A stretch of 64,000 bases of DNA, from positions 1-64,000 of the IMG/VR virus record IMGVR_UViG_3300005921_000006, one strand, 5' to 3'. Position 1 is the first letter of the stretch; each line of letters starts with the position of its first letter. Made by a program: the position numbers and the translations under genes. The DNA comes from a virus. The notes beneath the pieces are model-generated. The model saw only the letters and a list, made by a program, of their open reading frames with translations. It did no database searches and was not told the origin of the DNA. This document shows positions 6,549 to 50,102 of this stretch, piece by piece.

Positions 6549-7601
6549 ATGGAGTTAACCGCCACGAACGTAAACCAGGCCGTAAACGAGGGTTTCCACT
6601 ACCTAGCCGTAGCCGGGGTGGAGGAGAACTCCCGGAACGGAAAAGTAATCGTCGCCCCCGAGCCGGTGCTTACTACCTACACCCACCCCACGGAGCGCGT
6701 GCTGTTTAGTCCGCTGCGGGACGCAAATCCCTTTTTTCATCTAATGGAAGCACTTTGGATGCTAGCGGGCCGGAACGATGTAGCTTGGCCTGCGTATTTC
6801 GCCAAGAACATTGCGCAGTATTCGGACGACGGTTCTGAATTTTGGGGTGCTTATGGAAAACGCTGGCGTAGCTGGTTTAACGGTCACGACCAGATTGTTG
6901 AAATAATCAACGACCTAAAAGAAAATCCTGAAAGCCGCCGTTGTGTAATTTCTATGTGGGATGGTTATGCGGATAGAAAGCAAGCACTGCTAGGTGGAAA
7001 AGACGTACCTTGCAACACCCACATCTACTTCGACCTGCGCGGCGGAGTACTGAACATGACGGTAATGCAGCGCAGTGGAGATGCGTTGTGGGGTGTGTAT
7101 GGGGCCAACGCTGTGCATATGAGCATTTTGCAGGAATACGTCGCGGCGGGCGTAGGTGCTCCGGTGGGGGTCTATCGGCAATTTTGTAACAATTTCCACG
7201 TGTACCCGGCGAACCTACCCAACGCGCCGCAGGCTTACGCTTCGGTTGCGCCGTTTAGCTGTATCCGCGCCTTAGCCATAGACGCCGACACTAGCGACGC
7301 CTACAAGACCGGCGAGGTAACGCCGTTCCCGCTGGTGAACACGGACATAGAGACGTGGGATGCGGACTTGAAACGATTCATGGAGCGTCCTTGTGACGGA
7401 CCTGGTGCCGGTTCTATCTACCGTTTTGAAGATCCATTCTTTAATTCTGTAGCTCAACCGATGTACTGCGGCTGGAAGCAACGTAAAGAGAAACGCGGGA
7501 CATGCATAGAGTGGGCGCGCTTAATCAGCGCCCCCGACTGGCGCAAAGCCTGCGTGGAGTGGATTGAACGCCGAGAGGCGAAGAAAGGAAGTGCAGAATG
7601 A
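6549..7601 (+). CDS. Thymidylate synthase-fold enzyme, probable dUMP hydroxymethylase
   Basis: A 350-residue protein starting at ATG after GAAAGGAGATCTT. Landmarks of the thymidylate synthase fold are visible: FHLMEALWMLAGR (63-75), GAYGKRWRSW (100-109), catalytic Cys155 in DVPCNTHIYF, phosphate-binding QRSGD (174-178), Asn187 in GANAVHM, and FHVY (216-219). Asn187 is at the position that is Asn in dUMP enzymes and Asp in dCMP hydroxymethylases, so dUMP is the likely substrate. Sequence alone cannot separate methylation from hydroxymethylation. The kinase and hypermodification genes just upstream favour hydroxymethylation, giving 5-hmdUMP for incorporation into phage DNA. Confidence 0.85.
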   Translation: MELTATNVNQAVNEGFHYLAVAGVEENSRNGKVIVAPEPVLTTYTHPTERVLFSPLRDANPFFHLMEALWMLAGRNDVAWPAYFAKNIAQYSDDGSEFWGAYGKRWRSWFNGHDQIVEIINDLKENPESRRCVISMWDGYADRKQALLGGKDVPCNTHIYFDLRGGVLNMTVMQRSGDALWGVYGANAVHMSILQEYVAAGVGAPVGVYRQFCNNFHVYPANLPNAPQAYASVAPFSCIRALAIDADTSDAYKTGEVTPFPLVNTDIETWDADLKRFMERPCDGPGAGSIYRFEDPFFNSVAQPMYCGWKQRKEKRGTCIEWARLISAPDWRKACVEWIERREAKKGSAE

Positions 7602-33628: not shown

Positions 33629-34342
33629 TTAGTTAACGGTAACAACCTGCCGGTGAAGCTTCTTGCAAGTTTCCTCGAACTCCGCGCCGATTTTCTTCGA
33701 CGCCACCAGCGGGTCCGCGTCCATCCCCGCACGCGGATTGTCCGCACCCTTGGCGTCGTTGATGAGCTTGTAGGCGTCTTCCGTCGAACCACCACCTTTT
33801 AAGCTCTTCATCGCCGCATTAAAGCCATCAATCGCCCGCTTGTCGCCGCTCGCCGCAATTACCGGTTTCAACGCCCGCAAGTTGGCAATGGCCGCATCCG
33901 CGCCCGGAATCGGGTTCTTGGGGCGGTCTTCCTTCGATAGCGTAGCCACGGGGATCAAGTCCGCGTCTTCCGCTTTCTTGAACATGGGGCAGGCTTCCTT
34001 GTGGGGGTCGCCCTCTTCGGCGTCACAGGTGCACTTGGCGTCTTCGGCAGCCTTGGATTCCTTCGGCTCCTCCGACTTTTTCGCCAGTTCCTCGAAGCCG
34101 TCCTTCATGGTTTTTTGCAGGCCAACGAGGGCGTCGAGTATAGCCTTATCCTGGGCCTTCTTCTCTTCTTTTTCTTTCTTTTCCTCGGCTTCCGCCTCGG
34201 CGTCCATCGTTCGTTGTTTCAATTCGAGTGCCTCCTTGTCCTTTTCTTCCTGCGTTTTAACGGTTTCGGACTCTGCGTCGCGTGCGGTGACTAGACGCAG
34301 GCCAGCATCTTTAAGACCTGCAACAAAATCCTTCCACTCCAT
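33629..34342 (-). CDS. Nested scaffold protein from internal start
   Basis: A 237-residue product predicted from an in-frame ATG at 34342 (MEWKDFVAGLKDAGLRLVTA) with AAGGAG (34356-34351) at 8-base spacing. It would give a free scaffold protein sharing the C-terminus of the protease, as in the lambda C/Nu3 arrangement. The region is helical, charged and rich in coiled coil. Use of the start is inferred from the ribosome site only. Confidence 0.55.
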   Translation of the reverse strand: MEWKDFVAGLKDAGLRLVTARDAESETVKTQEEKDKEALELKQRTMDAEAEAEEKKEKEEKKAQDKAILDALVGLQKTMKDGFEELAKKSEEPKESKAAEDAKCTCDAEEGDPHKEACPMFKKAEDADLIPVATLSKEDRPKNPIPGADAAIANLRALKPVIAASGDKRAIDGFNAAMKSLKGGGSTEDAYKLINDAKGADNPRAGMDADPLVASKKIGAEFEETCKKLHRQVVTVN

Positions 34343-34930
34343 TTTGCTGTCTCCTTCTTCTAGACCTGCGTCCAGAACTCTTAGATGTTCGCCGCCTCTT
34401 GCTTTTTGCACAACGGCAATATGGTTACCCCGTATATCCTTCATCTGAAGCCGAAGTTCTCCGTCGTCCCAGCCAGGACCTTTATAGGGAACCAGGTTAT
34501 AGGTGTACCCACCCGACAACTCCGCCATTACGTCGTCATTCACGTACTGAATAAGCTGAGAGTCCTTAAAAAATAAGTCCAAATACATCGCTTCATTGCC
34601 ATCAGGCAGCCGTTCCCCCCGCTGTACGTTTTGCACATGCCCGCAAGAGTGCTCCCGGTCGTTTTCCGCGTTCAAAAACTCCCGTGGGTGAGTACGGGTA
34701 ATTGACTTCCCTTCAAACGACGCCATGGACACTGGATCGAAAACGTCCGCCGCGTCCCGATACACGTTAACGATAGTATCCGGCGCAAGGTTATCAATCT
34801 GTAATTCACTTGCACGATATTGTTGCCAGCCAGTTCGAGTTGCGGGGATACGGCAAGCAATTAAGTAGCCCTCGGGGGTTTTAATTCTATGGGGACCAAT
34901 ACGCTCGCCGAAAAATAGCTGTTTTGCCAT
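33629..34930 (-). CDS. Prohead protease (DUF2213-type) fused to scaffold domain
   Basis: A 433-residue protein. The N-terminal protease domain (about 1-180) has TPEGYLIACRIPATRTGWQQ, ITRTHPREFLNAENDREHSC (His81), MYLDLFFKDSQLIQYVND and AELSGGYTY (Ser139), matching DUF2213. Residues about 197-433 are a charged, helical scaffold-type region (Lys/Glu/Ala-rich coiled coil at 225-300) with a Cys cluster KCTCDAEEGDPHKEACPMF. It would cleave scaffold and capsid during prohead maturation. Confidence 0.85.
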   Translation of the reverse strand: MAKQLFFGERIGPHRIKTPEGYLIACRIPATRTGWQQYRASELQIDNLAPDTIVNVYRDAADVFDPVSMASFEGKSITRTHPREFLNAENDREHSCGHVQNVQRGERLPDGNEAMYLDLFFKDSQLIQYVNDDVMAELSGGYTYNLVPYKGPGWDDGELRLQMKDIRGNHIAVVQKARGGEHLRVLDAGLEEGDSKMEWKDFVAGLKDAGLRLVTARDAESETVKTQEEKDKEALELKQRTMDAEAEAEEKKEKEEKKAQDKAILDALVGLQKTMKDGFEELAKKSEEPKESKAAEDAKCTCDAEEGDPHKEACPMFKKAEDADLIPVATLSKEDRPKNPIPGADAAIANLRALKPVIAASGDKRAIDGFNAAMKSLKGGGSTEDAYKLINDAKGADNPRAGMDADPLVASKKIGAEFEETCKKLHRQVVTVN

Positions 34931-38851: not shown

Positions 38852-41800
38852 TTAGTAAAGAGTACACGTTGAGCCTGCGTTGATTTGGGCATCCCCGGAT
38901 GTTCCGGCGGTGCCGTAAATGACGAACGTTCCGCTTGTCGCGCTGCCAGTAAACGACCCGGATGCCTGCCACGGATACCCGGTCGCGGTTGCAGCGGCCG
39001 CAGCTCCAGTAAGTGTGGTTACAGCCGTCGTTCCCGTATTCGTGATAGGCCCAGCGGATGTTTGAGTTCCCGCATTGGTGCTCCAGATGATTGCATTGTG
39101 GTTGCTGACAGTCGGAGACTGCGTGAACTGTGTTCCGAGAAGTAACGTGACTGCAACGCTCGCTGACTCCCACGTCCCTTGGCACTGGTATGCCCACGTC
39201 TTAGCCGTAGCCGGAAGCGTCCAGCTACAGATCGTCGTCGTCGTGTTCATGATAATGAGGGACGTGATCTTGCAGGCGTCCGCGACATTGAGCAGCGTGT
39301 TCATATTCAGAAACGGAGTTGTGCCGCCCGTCGTAATCTCAGGAGCCGTGCCGCCAAGGACCATATTCGGCCCCAGTGCGAAAGAGTTCGACGCTTGACT
39401 TGCTAACGCAAATTGCGACGTGCTGCTGGCCTGAAGGTCGATCAGTTTTGAGCCAGAACCGCTGGCCGTGTTCGTGATGTTCTCGAAGATTCCCGCGTCC
39501 ACCACGCCCGTTGTATTCCACGTCCCCGTTTCGTTGAAGAACGGGGTTGTATTCGCAGCGGCGACAGTTCCACCAGTGACTTCAAATTGCCCCGGAGCCC
39601 CCGCCGTACCAGTACCGCCCGCGCTACCGAGAGTAAATACGACGTTACCGCCGCGTCCGGTCGTACTGCCCGAAGTCGCTGCACCGCCGGTTCCTGTCGT
39701 AACGAGAAAGTCCGATCCCGCACCGCCCGTACCGGACGTAGAGCCGCCCGCGCCGCCTGCTGCACCTGCAATCGTATACGTACCAGCCGCGCCGCCCGCG
39801 CCTGTAGCCGCGCCCTGAGTTCCAGCACCAGGAGTCAATGAGAACGCGCCACCCACACCACCTGTGTTCGTGGTCGTCCCACCGTGAGCACCACCAGCAC
39901 CGAGCGTTACGTTAAACGCTCCACCAGTTCCGCCGTTACCCGTCGTGGCGCCACCAGCCGATCCAGCCCCGGTGATCAGGGTAATTGGAGCGCCGGTCAA
40001 CCCGTTGATCGAAGCTGAAGCCGCGCCTCCCGCAGCCGCCGCGCTAATGTTAAGCACCGCTGGAGCATTTGTAGCCGCCGGCCCCGCCGCGCCCTGCGTG
40101 ATTTGCAGCGGGATTGACGTTGAAGTGGTCAGAGTAGAGATTTGCGCCTCTACGTCCGTTGTCCCCGTCGCTGCAGTCGTTTCTCCGACCGTGAATGCCG
40201 CTTGCGAGTTTGTTGTCTGCGCGAAATTCAGAGTGACTGGAAGGTTCCCAAGAACGCTCGCGGCTCCAAGCGCGCAACTCCAATCTGTCGTGACGTTGAT
40301 AATATCTGCGCACGATCTGGTCGAGTTACCGTATAAACCGGAAGTCGCTGAGACCCCTGTATAGGCCGTGCCATTAGCGAATACGACGCCACCTCCAGTT
40401 CCGGTCGTGGGCGTAGGGGCGCTCGCCCCAAACGTCATCTCGCCAGTTGGCAGAATCTGAGCCACGACGGTTTGCCCTGAAAGAACACCGGAAGAATAAC
40501 TGCCGCCAGTGCCCCATTGCGTTAGCGCGGCCTGAGTCGTTGCGCCGTTAATGTTCTCGGTAACCTGCCCAGTCGACGTTCCTGGGGTCGTTACTCCGAG
40601 CGCGAATGGCGTATTGTTGTTACTTGAATCCGTGTTCTGAATCACGATCGGCGTGGAAAGGTTCGCCGTCACTGTGCCTGTGAGTTGCGTTCCCCCAACC
40701 ACGGCGGGAAGCTTTACCGACGCCGCACCAGTCGCTGCGCTTGCATCGAAGAGGCCAGCCGCTGCCGCTGTCAGTGTCGTCGCTGAAGCCGTCCAATCCG
40801 TGACGCACCCGAAAGCTCCAGCATTGTCGTATTGCAGCGAGTTCGCCGTCGTCGTGCACGGCGTTCCGCCGCCGCTAGCCGCGATTGTCACACCATTGGT
40901 TGCCGGCGTCAGTGTGATATTCGTTCCAGCAACCAGTGGCGGTGTGCCCCAGAAATTCCCGCTACTGTCAGCCGTGAAATAAATTGGCTGGTCTTTAATG
41001 AGCACCGGAATCGAAGTCGCTCCGTTGAAATTCTTCGAGTTGAGTGAGACCGTCGCGGTTGTCGTACCGACCGAAACCACGCCGCCAGTGTAGCCCGCCA
41101 CCGCGCTGCCATTGAATGTGTACGCGCAGGCCGATGTGCAGTTCATTACGATCAAACTGCCTGAGTCGGCAGTTGAGTTCCCGGTGTAGGCTCCCGTCTC
41201 CGTCAACTCCCCGGTGATCAGTTCGCCAGCGAATGTCTTAGCCCCAGTGAATGTCAGAGCGTTTGCCGCCGCGTCGACACTACCGTAATCCGTGGTCCCA
41301 TTGATCAGGTCGAGCGCGTGGTTTGTCGAGTTACAGTAGAGGCCATCGACCGTGGACACCCCTGTGAACGCCGTGCCTTCGGCGCACGCCATTCCGCCAC
41401 CGGTTCCAAGTGTCGGAGTCGGCGCACCCGCACCAAATAATCCTTCTCCCGTATTGCTGAAGTTTACTTCGGTCACGCCATTGTTGTTGAAATTAGCAAG
41501 CCCTGCAGATGTGCCGGAAGGATTGTTTACAATCAATCCCACCTGAGTCGTAGAAGTAGGCGAAATTGTCGCTCCTTCCGTAAACGCCCACACTACTCCA
41601 TTGTCCGTAGCGTGACCCGTACCCGGAGCTGTGCCCGCCCCACCCCATAGTATGGGGGCGTTCGCCGTACCTGCGCCTGAAGAAGACTCCTGCGTCGTAG
41701 AACTAAAATAGGGTATTCCACCCGACGTCACCGTGCCCGACACCGTAAGCGGAAAGGAACCACCGCCCACAGTTACAAAACTACAAGATGAAATATTACT

Positions 41801-43084
41801 GGAAGGAGTACCGCATTCTAGTGATTGAGTTCCGCTTGGCCCCGTGATAGGAAGTTGATACCAAGTAGCCGTAAAACTCGCAGAATTAGGACCAATGAAC
41901 CCAGCCGTATTTGCTATAGGTGTAAGCGTTCCCGTATTACCCGGCAAAACCACCGCTCCGGGATTCGACCCAACCGCGCCCGCCGCCACGGGACCGGGAA
42001 AATTTGCCGTCGTAAGGCCTGTTGCACTACCCGTGTGGGTAAAGTTAAACGAGTTCGCCGCATCGGTTCCCGTGCCGGGTACAAACTGCAACGCCAAGCA
42101 GCCTTCTACCGACGCGGAAGCGTGCCACTCTGTACCGCACAAGGAATTGATAGGGCTGGACTGGCTTGTCCCAACTAACGCAGCAGTATTATTTTTCCAC
42201 GCGAAGAACTGACTTACTCCAGTAGTCGTGGTAAAGATAGAAGTATTCGCGCCGTTCGCAATCGAAAGGTTACCGCTGGGCGCGGCGTTGTTGTTCCACA
42301 GATAACCGGTGGTATTGGTTAACGTCCCGCTCGCGGGAGTGCCCAAATTCGGAAGAGTTAAAGTTACACCACTAGGCAGCGACAGCGTACAGGTTCCGGT
42401 CGTGGTGATCGTACACGTACCGGAGGCGGTAATCTGGTTCGCGGTTCCCGCCACCACCGCGCTCGTTACTGTACCCGTACCCGCCGAACTAAAAGCCCAC
42501 GCGCTACCCGTCCAGTTTAAAAATCCCGTGGACAAACTAGGCAGCGCGTTGCTTAAAAGTCCAACCACTTCCTGGGAGCTGGATGTGCCAGAAAGATCGC
42601 CCCCCGGCGTAAACGACCCACCACCACCCGTATGGCTATTCGCCGTACTAATCAGCGGATTAATCGTAACACTGGGTGTCGTACCGCCCGTCAACGTCGC
42701 CAGAAAAACGAAAACTCCGTAAGGCTTAGTAAAAGTAACCCCACGATTCGTTTTCGTCGTAGACGTATTACTGTCCGCCACCGTATCGCATGTAGGAGCC
42801 ACGGTGATCGTGCCGCGCATACAGCCGTACACATTCACGGTTACCCCAGTGGGCGAACCAATGGGAATTTCCTCGAACGTAGCGCCGTAAGCCCCGTAAG
42901 TGTTAGGGATTACCCCACACACTCCCGCCGCCGCCGTGGGGGTAGCCCCTATGCAGGTAGCCGCTACCGTAGCCGAAAGCGTGGGGCTGGATACGGTAAT
43001 CGTTTGAACCGGCGTAGACTGCACCTGGGCGTGACCAGGAACGCAAAGCGCTGCGATGAGCGCCAGGTACCAGAAATGTTTCAT
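38852..43084 (-). CDS. Giant exported fibre/adhesin-like protein, 1410 aa
   Basis: Starts at ATG 43084 after AGGAGGGTT, with a signal peptide (MKHFWYLALIAALCVPGHAQ). It is a very long, Gly/Thr/Ser/Asn-rich, strand-repeat protein. An internal module (GAGAPTPTLGTGGGMACAEG at about 41.4 kb) recurs (GASAPTPTTGTGGGVVFANG at about 40.4 kb). A Gly-rich stretch at about 39.58-39.98 kb (GGTGGAFNVTLGAGGAHGG and similar) may form a glycine-rich helix bundle. The C-terminal about 150 residues form a compact domain with paired Cys. Likely an adhesin or fibre. The part left of about 41.4 kb uses codons unlike the rest, suggesting a chimera. Confidence 0.65.
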   Translation of the reverse strand: MKHFWYLALIAALCVPGHAQVQSTPVQTITVSSPTLSATVAATCIGATPTAAAGVCGVIPNTYGAYGATFEEIPIGSPTGVTVNVYGCMRGTITVAPTCDTVADSNTSTTKTNRGVTFTKPYGVFVFLATLTGGTTPSVTINPLISTANSHTGGGGSFTPGGDLSGTSSSQEVVGLLSNALPSLSTGFLNWTGSAWAFSSAGTGTVTSAVVAGTANQITASGTCTITTTGTCTLSLPSGVTLTLPNLGTPASGTLTNTTGYLWNNNAAPSGNLSIANGANTSIFTTTTGVSQFFAWKNNTAALVGTSQSSPINSLCGTEWHASASVEGCLALQFVPGTGTDAANSFNFTHTGSATGLTTANFPGPVAAGAVGSNPGAVVLPGNTGTLTPIANTAGFIGPNSASFTATWYQLPITGPSGTQSLECGTPSSNISSCSFVTVGGGSFPLTVSGTVTSGGIPYFSSTTQESSSGAGTANAPILWGGAGTAPGTGHATDNGVVWAFTEGATISPTSTTQVGLIVNNPSGTSAGLANFNNNGVTEVNFSNTGEGLFGAGAPTPTLGTGGGMACAEGTAFTGVSTVDGLYCNSTNHALDLINGTTDYGSVDAAANALTFTGAKTFAGELITGELTETGAYTGNSTADSGSLIVMNCTSACAYTFNGSAVAGYTGGVVSVGTTTATVSLNSKNFNGATSIPVLIKDQPIYFTADSSGNFWGTPPLVAGTNITLTPATNGVTIAASGGGTPCTTTANSLQYDNAGAFGCVTDWTASATTLTAAAAGLFDASAATGAASVKLPAVVGGTQLTGTVTANLSTPIVIQNTDSSNNNTPFALGVTTPGTSTGQVTENINGATTQAALTQWGTGGSYSSGVLSGQTVVAQILPTGEMTFGASAPTPTTGTGGGVVFANGTAYTGVSATSGLYGNSTRSCADIINVTTDWSCALGAASVLGNLPVTLNFAQTTNSQAAFTVGETTAATGTTDVEAQISTLTTSTSIPLQITQGAAGPAATNAPAVLNISAAAAGGAASASINGLTGAPITLITGAGSAGGATTGNGGTGGAFNVTLGAGGAHGGTTTNTGGVGGAFSLTPGAGTQGAATGAGGAAGTYTIAGAAGGAGGSTSGTGGAGSDFLVTTGTGGAATSGSTTGRGGNVVFTLGSAGGTGTAGAPGQFEVTGGTVAAANTTPFFNETGTWNTTGVVDAGIFENITNTASGSGSKLIDLQASSTSQFALASQASNSFALGPNMVLGGTAPEITTGGTTPFLNMNTLLNVADACKITSLIIMNTTTTICSWTLPATAKTWAYQCQGTWESASVAVTLLLGTQFTQSPTVSNHNAIIWSTNAGTQTSAGPITNTGTTAVTTLTGAAAAATATGYPWQASGSFTGSATSGTFVIYGTAGTSGDAQINAGSTCTLY

Positions 43085-43095
43085 AACCCTCCTTT

Positions 43096-43605
43096 CTAGT
43101 ACAAAGCCTGGACGTAAGTTACGTAACCTTCCACGCCGGTAATCGATCCCCCCGTTACCAGGCAAAGCTGCTGACTAACCGGCGTTCGGACGCTGGTGTC
43201 GGTAGACCCGTTACTGGTAAAAATAGTGGTGGTGGGAATCGCCATCGCTCCGGTCAGCGCCGTAGCTCCGGTGTCGCAAGCCGTGGACGCGGTAGTTCCG
43301 TACTCGAACTGGATGGTAGGGTTGGTACCAACTACGGTCAGTTGCCACTTACAAACCGTAATATAGTCGCTGGTTACCGCGCTTACCAGGTTCGTAGTGG
43401 TGGCCGAAGTAACCGCCACCGACGCCGAGGTTTTCGTAATCGAAGGATTTTGACAAGGATCGCTGCCAACCGCAGCCGTTTGGAACAGGCTCAGCCCGCT
43501 CGGCCCTGCCGCTAAGAGATGTTGCTCGGGAGCAATCATCACCATAAGAGCCAGAACCAAAATCGCCGCTACACCGAACATCAAAACGTTCACTGACTTT
43601 TTCAT
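43096..43605 (-). CDS. Exported protein, 169 aa
   Basis: Starts at ATG 43605 after AGGAGGCGGC. An N-terminal hydrophobic helix with Lys (MKKSVNVLMFGVAAILVLAL) acts as signal or anchor. The rest is a beta-rich domain (VCKWQLTVVGTNPTIQFEYG, TSVRTPVSQQLCLVTGGSIT, GYVTYVQALY) with four Cys. It has the look of a secreted capping or surface protein. It heads the exported block in transcription order. Confidence 0.6.
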   Translation of the reverse strand: MKKSVNVLMFGVAAILVLALMVMIAPEQHLLAAGPSGLSLFQTAAVGSDPCQNPSITKTSASVAVTSATTTNLVSAVTSDYITVCKWQLTVVGTNPTIQFEYGTTASTACDTGATALTGAMAIPTTTIFTSNGSTDTSVRTPVSQQLCLVTGGSITGVEGYVTYVQALY

Positions 43606-44423
43606 GCCGCCTCCTGGAGTTGCAAATTGTTGATCTGTTTAAACTGCCCTAGGTTCATGTACACGATCCGGCCGCCCCAATACACTCTTGCGGGCCAGTT
43701 GACTTCCTTCAGACTCACCAGCGGAGAACAATAGCATCGACAGTTAAAAGTTGCTCCAGCATTATAAGTTCCATAACTCTTTTCCCCCGCCAGCTCCTCG
43801 GGGGAAGGTGGGTTATCGAACCGAAACAACACGCCCTGTAAGCGGCGATGACTTAGACGCACGCGCTGGTCCTGGCTGGTCTGCCACACATACCACGGCA
43901 ATCCCAGCTCCTCGCTCCGCGCCTGGGTTAACGCGGAGCTAGCTTTACTTACCTCCGTGCGAGCGATTAACTTTGCGCGACGGCGGGCGAGCCGCCCTAG
44001 TAGCGGTTCGAGCCGCTCCAGTTCTACAGCCCGCCCGCCTCCCAGTTGCTGCGCCGCTGCACGCGCCGCCACCAACGCGGCAACGTTCGATGGAAAACTG
44101 GAAATCAACTTGGCGTTCTCGGCGACTAACTCCCTTACTCGCTCGCCCGTGGGTCCGGCTAATTCCTGCTGGCGGGCGCGGTAAATAAGCGATCCTCTAC
44201 CGGCTTTGCTCGCCGCTTCCTGCCACGACTTCGCCTGCCCCACCCACAGCATGGTAATCATGCGCCGTGCAGCTTGCCTGGCATAAGCCTGCAAGAAGTC
44301 CGCGCCGGATAACTGGACGGCGCTAATGCCGCGCTCCCGCGCTTCGTGGACGAACTCTTTAAACACTCCCCAGATAGCGGAGGCGTAAGAGTGCTCGGCG
44401 CGTTGATTAGGCTGCCAGTTCAT
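43602..44423 (-). CDS. Minor head protein, MuF/SPP1 gp7-like
   Basis: A 273-residue protein. The head-morphogenesis pattern is clear in the C-terminal half: LIARTEVSKASSALTQARSE, LGLPWYVWQTSQDQRVRLSH, GVLFRFDNPPSPEELAGE and AGATFNCRCYCSPLVSL. The helical N-terminus fits binding to the portal. It probably enters the capsid and may be ejected with DNA. It follows the portal with two small genes between. Confidence 0.87.
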   Translation of the reverse strand: MNWQPNQRAEHSYASAIWGVFKEFVHEARERGISAVQLSGADFLQAYARQAARRMITMLWVGQAKSWQEAASKAGRGSLIYRARQQELAGPTGERVRELVAENAKLISSFPSNVAALVAARAAAQQLGGGRAVELERLEPLLGRLARRRAKLIARTEVSKASSALTQARSEELGLPWYVWQTSQDQRVRLSHRRLQGVLFRFDNPPSPEELAGEKSYGTYNAGATFNCRCYCSPLVSLKEVNWPARVYWGGRIVYMNLGQFKQINNLQLQEAA

Positions 44424-44667: not shown

Positions 44668-44852
44668 GACTCGTAGTCCTCGACTTCGTAAATCCTAGAC
44701 TCTACGCGGAACAGCTTTACCCGCTGCGGACACTGCTCCTCGGGGCAAACGTAAGCCCCGTTATCAGTACGTTTCATCGTAGTACCGCACTCGCAAAACA
44801 ATACCGTCATAGCCGAAAAACCTTCCGCGTAGCGCACCGGGGAAACGCTCAC
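44664..44852 (-). CDS. Small zinc-ribbon protein
   Basis: 62 residues from GTG 44852 (GTGA overlap with the portal stop), or 48 residues from ATG 44810. Cys pairs CECG and CPEEQCP around a beta hairpin (MKRTDNGAYVCPEEQCPQRV) make a typical zinc ribbon. Role unknown. Confidence 0.6.
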   Translation of the reverse strand: MSVSPVRYAEGFSAMTVLFCECGTTMKRTDNGAYVCPEEQCPQRVKLFRVESRIYEVEDYES

Positions 44853-46798
44853 GCCACCAGCCTTTTACCTTGTTCCGAAAATACTTTCTTACGGAACTCG
44901 GTAATAGGAATCGTAATCAGATATTCTGGTAGCCACGGGCCAGGAGAATAGTTCGCCTCCAGCGCTTCCCGCGCTTCGCCCGCGCTGTTAAAGCCGAGCA
45001 GCACTTTATCTTCCGGGTCGTTGCCGCGCATGGGCGCAACATACACGTTCGCTGCGTTTTCATTCGGACCCAGGAACACATCTACTTCGTCGCCGTCCAC
45101 GCCTTCGCTACCCAAGATGCAACCGTAAGGATTCTTCATTACAATCGACCAGCCGTTACCCTGGCGTGTGGAACCAACTGGGTTTTCTACAGCGATAGGT
45201 AGACCGGCAAACACCAGCGTATGCGCGGAATCCTCGAACGCGGCGTCCTTAGCTTTCTTGGGCTTCTTCTTACTCTTATCCGGCTTGGCTTCCTTTTTGT
45301 CTTTCTTTACCGGCTCGTCCTCTTCGTCTTCCAAGCCGCCGCCCATTAGCTCCATGGGGTCCATCGTCTCTTCGTCCGCTGACTCGATGTCCTTATCCGT
45401 AATATTTGTAAAGACGCCCGTCTCGGAGGACATCTCCTTCAGCTCCAGCATGGCCGTGCGCTGCGAAATAATGTTAGCCGTAAACGCCTGCGTAACCGCC
45501 GCGCTCTTGCTGGTTACGATTTCCGCCTGCTCTTTCGGGCCTAGGGAATTTACCGGACGCCAGCGCCACTCCAGGTCGTCGGGCACTTTGCCCAGCACCG
45601 ACATGGCGATCACGGGCATTAACTTTTGCATTTGCGGGTCTACTTCGCGCTGTTGCTTAGCTTTTAAGTTCTCGTAATAGGTATGCTCGTCGCCCTGATT
45701 ACTGTCGCCCAGCCCTCCGCCCGGACGCCCGAACATACGGGAGAAAGGTATTTCGCACGCACCGCAAATGTCGTACATAAACAACTCGTACACGTCGCTG
45801 ATCCCGGCGAAGCCGTACTGGTGGGTGGATAAACCGCCGCCCTCGGGGTCGCTTACCACGATACCCTGATTGCTCATCAACTGCGCCTGCGCCTGGATCG
45901 CCGCATAAAACGACTGAGCGCTTTGCTGGTTGCTGCCTAACCCAGAAATCATCTGGGCCAAACCCTTTTGGCGCAGCTCGAAGATGTTGGCGCGGAAAAT
46001 AAGGCTGGCCAGGTTGTAGCTGGTGTTGTCGCGCTTTTTCAGTTCCTCGTAGATAATTTCGATTTCGCTTAGTCCCCAGCGGTTTTCCGCCTGCCACTCC
46101 CAGTTGGGAAGACTACGCCCAGCGAAGCGCAGTACACGGCTGGAATGGACCTCAAAGGAACTAGCGGACTCGGGATTAACTCGATAACTTTCGGGATATC
46201 CAAAGTCAAGGGGACGATCAATGTCGTTACAAATGTTGGCGCTAGGGGAGATACCTGCCCACCGATCAAAGACAAGAAGTCCGCGAAACGAATCAAGGTC
46301 TACGTCCTCCACGTCCAGGGGCTTCTCCATTTGCTTGGGAGATTCCTGCCCCTTAATAATCATTACCGCGCCCGAGCCACCGAACAACCGCGCCCACTTC
46401 AGGGCTTCCAGCACTTTGGCCTGGACGCCACCCAGCTTCATCGCCATATCGAGCTTTTTAATCTGCTTGGGCGAAATCTCCGTGGTGATGGCGAACCAGT
46501 TTTTAACTAGGTCTTCGGCAACGCTGTCAATCACTTTTCTTGCAATCCAATTTGATCTATAAAGCGATTGGAGCAAAATGTAGTTGTACGACAACCTTGT
46601 CATCGGGTAGTTCGTACCCTCTAACAAGTTGTTCGACCCCCAACCGATGCGAGCTAGCGTATTGTTAAACGCATCCAGCGCCGTCTTCGTAGCAGGGGCT
46701 ACGTTGCTATGTCGCGAGGCTTCCACGCGGAACGCGGAGATGGCCCGCGCTTCGTCCAACGTAATCTTCGGCTTATAAATCTGGTAAGCGCTGCTCAC
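44849..46798 (-). CDS. Portal protein (DUF1073-type) fused to inorganic-pyrophosphatase-like domain
   Basis: A 649-residue protein. Residues about 1-480 are a DUF1073-type portal (NYILLQSLYRSNWIARKVID, ALKWARLFGGSGAVMIIKGQ, DVYELFMYDICGACEIPFSR, MFGRPGGGLGDSNQGDEHTY). A Lys/Asp/Glu/Pro linker (about 485-530) leads to a C-terminal domain of about 120 residues: FAGLPIAVENPVGSTRQGNG, YGCILGSEGVDGDEVDVFLG, VYVAPMRGNDPEDKVLLGFN. This matches the phage InPase (inorganic pyrophosphatase-like) domain known from polyvalent proteins, with acidic GVDGDEVDVF retained. Portals normally end after the first part. Confidence 0.85.
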   Translation of the reverse strand: MSSAYQIYKPKITLDEARAISAFRVEASRHSNVAPATKTALDAFNNTLARIGWGSNNLLEGTNYPMTRLSYNYILLQSLYRSNWIARKVIDSVAEDLVKNWFAITTEISPKQIKKLDMAMKLGGVQAKVLEALKWARLFGGSGAVMIIKGQESPKQMEKPLDVEDVDLDSFRGLLVFDRWAGISPSANICNDIDRPLDFGYPESYRVNPESASSFEVHSSRVLRFAGRSLPNWEWQAENRWGLSEIEIIYEELKKRDNTSYNLASLIFRANIFELRQKGLAQMISGLGSNQQSAQSFYAAIQAQAQLMSNQGIVVSDPEGGGLSTHQYGFAGISDVYELFMYDICGACEIPFSRMFGRPGGGLGDSNQGDEHTYYENLKAKQQREVDPQMQKLMPVIAMSVLGKVPDDLEWRWRPVNSLGPKEQAEIVTSKSAAVTQAFTANIISQRTAMLELKEMSSETGVFTNITDKDIESADEETMDPMELMGGGLEDEEDEPVKKDKKEAKPDKSKKKPKKAKDAAFEDSAHTLVFAGLPIAVENPVGSTRQGNGWSIVMKNPYGCILGSEGVDGDEVDVFLGPNENAANVYVAPMRGNDPEDKVLLGFNSAGEAREALEANYSPGPWLPEYLITIPITEFRKKVFSEQGKRLVA

Positions 46799-48370: not shown

Positions 48371-48765
48371 ACCGTCCCTCCCACGTAAGTAATCGTAATT
48401 GGCTCGCCGTTCGCCCCGTTCAGCACATCCATCAACACGGCAAATGCAGCACGGGAACCCCCAACCCAATCCGTACTCCGCGTCTGGCCCACCACCGTAC
48501 AACCTTCGGTATCCGCTGGATCGTTACCGGGATGGACTTCAATTTCGGTAAAGTCTGGGACATCCTGAATGTGTGGTGTAAGCACCCCGAACCGCGCCGA
48601 CATTTGCAGCACCACCGCGTAAGTTCCAGCCGAAATACAATAAGGCTTGCCCTGCGAGCGATCGCTGCGCGGCTCTAACGTATAACACTCGAACATTCCA
48701 TTCACCGACAGCTCACCCGTGGTGGACTGGTCGGTAAACGTGTCGCGTTGGACCACGATGTTCAC
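48367..48765 (-). CDS. DUF5675-type protein
   Basis: About 132 residues from GTG 48765 (GTGA overlap with the terminase stop, GGAGG upstream). The pattern GELSVNGMFECYTLEPR, YCISAGTYAVVLQMSARFGV, FTEIEVHPGNDPADTEGCTV and VG follows the DUF5675 family, which has the fold of L,D-transpeptidase-like catalytic domains with His and Cys (HPGN, DTEGC). Members occur in phage packaging and lysis regions; activity on peptidoglycan is a guess. Confidence 0.75.
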   Translation of the reverse strand: MNIVVQRDTFTDQSTTGELSVNGMFECYTLEPRSDRSQGKPYCISAGTYAVVLQMSARFGVLTPHIQDVPDFTEIEVHPGNDPADTEGCTVVGQTRSTDWVGGSRAAFAVLMDVLNGANGEPITITYVGGTV

Positions 48766-50102
48766 GCTGCGCTTAACCTCCAACTCGCACATTCCGTCTT
48801 CAGCACGTAGCGCACATTGTCCGGCCCGTCGTCCTTTACCTTTACCGGCTTTTCTTCCCCGCGAGCGCTGGCCTTTACGTCCCACACGTAAGTTTGAATC
48901 TGCTTAATGGTTTCGCCCACGTGATTATGGAACGGCGAGCCACCATCGTACATATAGTCTTCGGGAGGACGCTTAAACCGCACCCGGCCCAAGGCCATCA
49001 ATGTAGCGACGGTCTTTATGCCGTCCAGCACTTCGTTATCCGCATCGCAGTGCCAAATGCCCGCCTGCGTAAGCTCAGCGTCGAAGCTAGCGCACTCCGG
49101 GGGAAGAATTACTTTCGCGCCCGTCTTAATCGACTTTAAAAACTGCTCCAGGTCTTCCCGGTACTGGCGGTCAGTTTTCTGCCGCATGGTAACGTGGGAA
49201 TCCCACCAGTACTCGCGGTCAAACCAGAAGTTCGTGCCGTCGTCGTAGCAGTCCAGGTACACCTGCACGTGGTCTACACCACAATCCACGCCCACGTAGC
49301 GGGCTACGATATGCCCCGAGGCTTTCATCTTATCGTCGAACACCTTACCCGGCTTGCCGTTCCGCATGGTCCAGGGCTTATCGTCATACAGCAAGTCCTC
49401 CGACCATACGTCTTTATAGATCGCGCCTTCGCCCGTTACCCACAAGCCCAACACGAAGCGCTGGTGGTAGAGCGAACCGGGTGGGTACACGGCTTCCAGG
49501 TTCTTCTTATAATCTTTGGGCAGGTTGGGGTTGTCTTCCAACTCAAAATGTTCCGACCATAGCCGTCCGCTCTTACGCAGTTCTTTATTGTCGAGGAAAT
49601 CGGTCTTGATGTAGTGGAACGGCGTATCGGTATTAGTGGTGGCGTACAGCCGAGCGCCTTCTACCGACATACGGTTGAGCAAAGTAAGCACGAAGCTACG
49701 GACCTGAAGCGTAAGCTCATCGCACACAGCCACGCCTACGGTAAGCCCGCGCAGCGTCTTCTCGCTGCCTTCGTCTTTCGCGCCAATTACTAACCACTTA
49801 CTGCCGAATAGGTCCAATTCCCCGCTCTGACGGTTAAAGCCGTAATTGTCTTTGCCGATAATGTTGAACAGGTCGTTCAGCACGTTACGGTAAATGGTTT
49901 CCTTGGTCACGCCCGTAAAAAGTCGCCAGCCTTTTACCGGGTACTTACACAAGGCAATAATCTTCGGGATGCAGCCCCAGGTTTTCGCCGACCGGACGGA
50001 GCCTTCTAGTATGTTGAGCCAAGCGTCAGCCTCCGGCGCTCGATACGCGAAGTCGTAGCACTTTTGCCCCAGCGGGAGGAACACGCGGTCGTCTTGAATC
50101 AC
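48762..50102 (-). CDS. Terminase large subunit
   Basis: A 446-residue protein. The ATPase Walker A-like EGSVRSAKT (33-41) has Ala where relatives usually have Gly (GSVRSGKT). Walker B-like VGVAVCDELTL follows. The nuclease domain shows GVDCGVDH and later acidic residues (LPPECASFDAELTQAGI, DADNEVLDGIKTVATLMA). It cuts and pumps the DNA into proheads. ATGA overlap with the small subunit. Confidence 0.92.
   Translation of the reverse strand: MIQDDRVFLPLGQKCYDFAYRAPEADAWLNILEGSVRSAKTWGCIPKIIALCKYPVKGWRLFTGVTKETIYRNVLNDLFNIIGKDNYGFNRQSGELDLFGSKWLVIGAKDEGSEKTLRGLTVGVAVCDELTLQVRSFVLTLLNRMSVEGARLYATTNTDTPFHYIKTDFLDNKELRKSGRLWSEHFELEDNPNLPKDYKKNLEAVYPPGSLYHQRFVLGLWVTGEGAIYKDVWSEDLLYDDKPWTMRNGKPGKVFDDKMKASGHIVARYVGVDCGVDHVQVYLDCYDDGTNFWFDREYWWDSHVTMRQKTDRQYREDLEQFLKSIKTGAKVILPPECASFDAELTQAGIWHCDADNEVLDGIKTVATLMALGRVRFKRPPEDYMYDGGSPFHNHVGETIKQIQTYVWDVKASARGEEKPVKVKDDGPDNVRYVLKTECASWRLSAA

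Follow-up and report, generated by a model that had tools for sequence, protein, structure and literature searches.

A viral portal protein with an optional pyrophosphatase-like domain that lacks an otherwise invariant aspartate

Fusion of an inorganic-pyrophosphatase-like (InPase) domain to a phage portal protein has already been reported for BcepF1.124, and the same study suggested that such domains are injected and act on nucleotides or pyrophosphate (PPi) (Iyer 2017, PMC5512222). In BcepF1.124 and its Pbunavirus relatives, gp19 of Pa193 and E217, a PF06381-type portal is joined through a linker to an InPase at the C-terminus; identity between BcepF1.124 and Pa193 gp19 is 57%. According to structural reports, the C-terminal barrel of the E217 portal, modelled for residues 97-528 of 765, projects into the head and is folded only when the head is filled with DNA (PMC10329688), and residues 529-765 of the Pa193 portal, the InPase included, have no cryo-EM density (PMC11042391). 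Neither the Pa193 nor the E217 structure resolves this part of the portal, which a flexible tail would explain as well as a removed one. The same Pfam family, PF18823, occurs in polyvalent proteins, whose InPases lack, in the account of Iyer 2017, the extra hairpin of family I pyrophosphatases (PMC5512222). Other enzymes are likewise carried on head proteins: portal or MuF fusions to 2H, ART, PBECR and NUDIX domains have been described with injection proposed, and for some of them the presumed targets are signalling nucleotides, RNA or host proteins (PMC5512222, PMC9503650).

The window described here, a stretch of 64,000 nucleotides from the 73,221-base record of an uncultured tailed phage, encodes a further portal–InPase fusion, placed by sequence comparison in a portal clade other than that of BcepF1.124. 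The order of portal, linker and InPase is the same. The portals of BcepF1.124, Pa193 and E217 share about 20% identity with that of the window in the core, are 765-862 aa long and have longer linkers; at the place of DPEDK in the window, their type shows FDEHK, with the motif intact. The motifs of the window domain are those of the polyvalent-protein InPases; most sampled viral PF18823 matches lie in very large multidomain proteins, whereas the window has the single domain on a portal. Acb1-like anti-CBASS proteins occur as portal fusions too, with a 2H phosphoesterase domain; Pfam matched no 2H family in the window protein.

The fusion gene and the position of its InPase

The features on which the analysis rests are the following.

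44849..46798, minus strand: portal–InPase fusion protein, 649 aa, GTG start (ORF, Pfam, phrog_146, relatives L011-L014)
45491..46573, minus strand: portal core, PF06381 Phage_portal_3, residues 76-436 (Pfam, VIA-align)
45230..45343, minus strand: acidic-then-basic, predicted flexible linker, residues 486-523 (pLDDT, charge count)
44885..45217, minus strand: InPase domain, PF18823, residues 528-638 (Pfam, predicted family I pyrophosphatase fold)
45065..45103, minus strand: GVDGDEVDVFLGP, metal/catalytic motif, residues 566-578 (sequence, alignment to E. coli Ppa)
45014..45016, minus strand: P595, at the first residue of D-E-x-K (alignment)
43602..44423, minus strand: MuF head-morphogenesis protein, encoded downstream of the fusion gene (Pfam)
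48762..50102, minus strand: large terminase subunit (Pfam, PHROGs)
33629..34930, minus strand: head maturation protease-like protein (DUF2213) that may cleave the linker

The fusion ORF starts with the GTG at 46798, and a Shine-Dalgarno-like ggag lies shortly 5' of it. Both of its domains match Pfam well above the cut-offs, the portal at 300.6 bits against 33.8 (1.6e-89) and the InPase, the only one in the virus record, at 82.9 bits against 26.8 (2.5e-23). In PHROGs, the protein matches the portal family phrog_146 (1.1e-106), and the best match over the InPase part is phrog_4660, a 765-position family named minor head protein. The portal fold was recovered by VIA-align against the Pam3, Pa193 and E217 portals (Z 23.7-25.7), with 387 residues aligned to Pam3 at Z 25.7 and an rmsd of 6.6. 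The sequence-only reading of a genuine portal fused to an InPase of the polyvalent-protein type, with an acidic-basic linker and the motif GVDGDEVDVFLGP unaltered, is borne out, and the domain search that it had proposed for the C-terminus returns PF18823.

Our comparison with other viral contigs revealed the same architecture in independent relatives, of which the closest, L011-L014, are 53-56% identical to the window protein and also share the start region of the ORF. Since the fusion recurs in contigs of separate metagenomes, an assembly error, which had been named as a possible source of it, is excluded. Single-sequence scans found no relatives. A tree of InPase domains separates the window type from the BcepF1/PB1 type; an AU test did not reject a single clade (p 0.23), and we therefore do not claim that two portal clades captured the domain independently.

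The portal lies in a block of head and contractile-tail genes encoding the large terminase, MuF, the head protease, the major capsid protein, the sheath and the baseplate. Being fused to a portal with MuF downstream, the InPase shows the head-gene association of injected polyvalent-type effectors. Beside the head genes, the minus-strand ORFs 38852-43165 and 43096-43605 have signal-peptide-like stretches near their starts; the former continues as a long Gly/Ala/Thr-rich protein, and the latter has no Pfam or PHROG match. PADLOC, run on 10 window proteins, gave no match, and no tRNA genes were found.

The linker of 38 residues contains 12 D/E and 12 K/R, the acidic residues coming first and the basic ones after. 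In the full-length model, a folded portal and a folded InPase are joined by a linker with pLDDT below 50, which is thus predicted to be disordered. Model residues 58-492 align to residues 95-518 of the Pa193 portal, and residues 57-500 to residues 96-528 of the E217 portal. Given these alignments, the direction of the E217 barrel and the density gap in Pa193, the window InPase is expected to be suspended within the head, on the inner side of the portal ring. The earlier placement in the head or neck is thereby narrowed, by homology, to the head side.

Predicted fold and active-site residues of the InPase domain

The InPase domain was modelled with a pLDDT of 92.4 and a pTM of 0.86. The best 50 Foldseek matches are all family I pyrophosphatases (best E 1.4e-3), as are the best 50 VIA-align matches in the PDB (Z 5.9-7.2, rmsd 3.2-4.1). 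Taken alone these fold scores are moderate (Z below 8, Foldseek E above 0.001), and the sequence agrees with them: a 50-row InPase profile (A5) matches the M. tuberculosis pyrophosphatase at 2.3e-4 and E. coli Ppa with an hhalign probability of 92.3 over the YGxI...DGDxVD stretch, where GVDGDEVDVFLGP is aligned with the DGDPVD motif of Ppa. The predicted window domain therefore resembles the family I pyrophosphatases, and it shares with Ppa both the predicted fold and the YGxI...DGDxVD motif, while being shorter. The Ppa loop with D97 and D102 differs from that of the window.

The E..R..YG...DGDxxD core is present as E538, R545, Y558, D568, D570 and D573, and with E596 and K598 all eight scored positions are retained. 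Seven of them are kept in 49/49 aligned relatives, and D570 in 44/49. Directly before E596, however, P595 replaces an Asp that is present in 49/49 aligned relatives, and the local sequence in the window is NDPEDK, the loop being shorter than in these relatives. A D-E-x-K motif was found in 98/98 other distinct InPase domains, many of them from loci found with patterns that include D-E-x-K or DGDxxD. The motif is invariant in this sample and is not a curated defining feature of PF18823; the window has P-E-D-K. The InPase loci that came from the portal scan alone, and are unbiased by motif patterns, number 12 (L096, L114, L125, L126, L127, L135, L142, L146, L151, L154, L157 and L159). The polyvalent InPases keep the invariant Asp as well. 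The new observation here is that, at the level of sequence, the window domain lacks an Asp kept by every other domain examined, and the activity of this particular copy therefore cannot be assumed. The description of a full InPase domain in the sequence-only reading holds for the core motif and fails for the Asp of D-E-x-K; as to the loss of metal-binding residues about which that reading had cautioned, one invariant Asp is gone and the eight motif residues are kept.

The middle Asp of DGD is lost in two of the 14 other aligned portal tails, L125 (4773-6989) and L159 (3554-5521), which have Asn or Glu in its place, hinting at lost or altered InPase activity.

The portal C-terminus as an exchangeable position

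A portal-core profile, blind to the InPase, retrieved 80 viral loci. Each of them contains a portal ORF, and collapsing at 97% identity left 68. An InPase tail is present in 12/68 of these distinct portals. In four, a free gene for the InPase lies between those of the portal and MuF (L098, L135, L151 and L154; the gene order at L098 was read from L029 on the same contig), and 13/68 have some other tail of at least 150 aa. Among those 13, Pfam matches above the cut-off identify topoisomerase IB in three (L101, L122, L137) and PBECR1 in one (L148); no Pfam family was found above the cut-off in the eight long tails of L095, L100, L136, L140, L147, L149, L153 and L156, and L152 matches ParB_N below it. 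A topoisomerase IB label for the tails of L095, L100, L140, L148, L149 and L152 was discarded, the weak matches being ascribed to a shared linker motif; L114 also matches this profile weakly (1.6e-7) and was kept as an InPase. Two loci selected for their InPase show further arrangements: L019 has a topoisomerase IB portal tail with a free InPase gene directly upstream, and L033 an ART portal tail with the InPase fused to MuF. In bacterial genomes (80 loci, 83 portal ORFs), two InPase tails were found, one each in MAGs of Acidobacteria and Gallionella, together with ART, PBECR1 and NUDIX tails, 10 of the 15 tails of at least 100 aa having been scanned.

The portal of L092, close to L011 and sharing 63% identity with the core of the window portal, ends in the linker without an InPase and is followed by MuF. 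Portals of this type indicate that the InPase domain is dispensable for the portal. Over 70 portals (14 with and 56 without an InPase tail), the label changes at least 8 times on a quickly built tree in which many forks are weak and from which eight long-branched rows were dropped (L033, L019 and six PB1-type). Sequence comparison thus gives a second new observation, that the InPase is optional among related portals, others having a free gene, a topoisomerase IB or an RNase-like domain. Where a pair could be compared, L075/L146, dN/dS was 0.15 for the InPase, 0.29 for the linker and 0.05 for the portal, and the InPase of this one pair is under purifying selection. The dS of the same pair is 0.41 for the InPase compared with 1.08 for the portal, possibly reflecting a recent domain exchange.

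The topoisomerase IB tails (PF01028, 4e-22 to 3e-18) belong to the portals L101:4806-7214, L122:4779-7361, L137:2682-4943 and L019:5430-8198. That of L122 aligns to a solved bacterial topoisomerase IB (2f4q, 5e-21) through the SYI tyrosine region and had no match in the phage collection; a literature search for a phage portal protein with topoisomerase IB found no paper. The 1416-aa portal of L096 (959-5206) has its InPase midway in a tail of 921 residues, the rest of which has no Pfam family above the cut-off. A short motif, HPR/HNR..DGKF or DGEF with a G-rich stretch after it, recurs ahead of different tail domains in L096, L192, L220, L246 and others, and may mark an attachment or processing point.

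Possible roles of the tethered domain

We consider it a serious possibility, somewhat short of probable, that the InPase is an optional pyrophosphatase-like payload, tethered in the head, delivered with the DNA and acting early in the new host. The C-terminus of the portal would then be the payload attachment point. Past the portal core, the chain would enter the head interior through the flexible charged linker and end in the family-I-like domain, with about twelve copies beside the packaged DNA, assuming the usual dodecameric portal. The domain is dispensable for portal function, and phages gain it, lose it or exchange it for another. It would ride in the virion and act in the newly infected cell, after proteolysis or on ejection. 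Its substrate would be a pyrophosphate-containing small molecule, either PPi or a nucleotide that the infection causes to be made. A counter-nucleotide function, argued here by analogy, is made more plausible by the conflict-type enzymes (RNase-like, ART, NUDIX) that occupy the same portal position in relatives, since occupants of this slot include enzymes placed in phage–host conflict in the literature (PMC5512222, PMC9503650). Tentatively, the idea could be widened: the C-terminus of this portal clade may serve as a general payload bay, in which InPase, topoisomerase IB, ART, RNase-like and NUDIX domains are tethered and from which they enter with the DNA, and the window InPase, its metal loop being altered, may be suited to some substrate different from PPi.

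For this particular phage, the main rival is loss of InPase activity. The window domain would then have decayed, or been repurposed, into a pseudo-enzyme: having lost hydrolysis through the short D-E-x-K loop, it would persist as a tail that binds a ligand or is inert. The replacement of the invariant Asp by P595 and a terminal branch of 0.92 in the InPase tree, compared with a median of 0.34, are what this reading would expect, and we judge it rather unlikely all the same: the eight scored residues are kept, the domain is modelled with high confidence, and D594, directly before the Pro, might stand in for the missing Asp. It is distinctly unlikely that the InPase works late in the producing cell, clearing PPi from DNA synthesis on free portals or assembling heads, with carriage in the virion incidental. 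Free small InPase genes do exist, for example in the Vibrio phages K475 and YC, and PPi clearing is an alternative raised for polyvalent InPases in Iyer 2017 (PMC5512222). Near these portals, however, the InPase is part of the portal or of MuF, or has a gene of its own next to the two or between them, and the conflict-type enzymes among the other tails are more in keeping with carriage than with the removal of PPi in bulk.

A structural or packaging role, in which catalysis is irrelevant and the tails occupy the space near the portal or touch the DNA, would agree with the charged, predicted disordered linker and with the DNA-dependent folding of the E217 barrel (PMC10329688). We hold it to be very unlikely, given that 7/8 motif positions are conserved in all aligned relatives and that near relatives have no InPase, or unrelated domains in its place.

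The InPase might also serve thymine hypermodification. When amino groups replace 5-pyrophosphoryl-methyl-dU in DNA, PPi is released, and the domain would clear it. The window does encode ADDT, HMUDK_hel, an HMUDK-like kinase (below the cut-off), a thymidylate synthase-type enzyme and a dCTP deaminase, and both ADDT and HMUDK_hel were found in 1/38 records tested, that of Vibrio phage K475, whose InPase is free. However, neither gene was present in the 11 other portal–InPase records, four of them complete phage genomes, an absence that is weak evidence in many records because many are fragments. Moreover, the window genes lie about 40 kb from the fusion, on the opposite strand. This link, offered earlier as conceivable, is not supported as a general explanation and is barely credible for the window domain. 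The thymine hypermodification genes occupy 2929-7601 on the plus strand, with an HNH endonuclease gene among them.

To conclude, portal–enzyme fusions of this kind would equip every particle that carries a genome with a small, fixed amount of enzyme beside the DNA exit, and the portal–topoisomerase IB fusions would be a distinct, DNA-acting payload. The payload idea is testable, as L011 and L092 form a natural pair with and without the domain and the Pbunavirus relatives are culturable. Release and substrate, if shown, would identify an early step of the phage–host conflict, and, if the C-terminus of these portals is indeed a general payload bay, one structural part would double as an effector-delivery adaptor.
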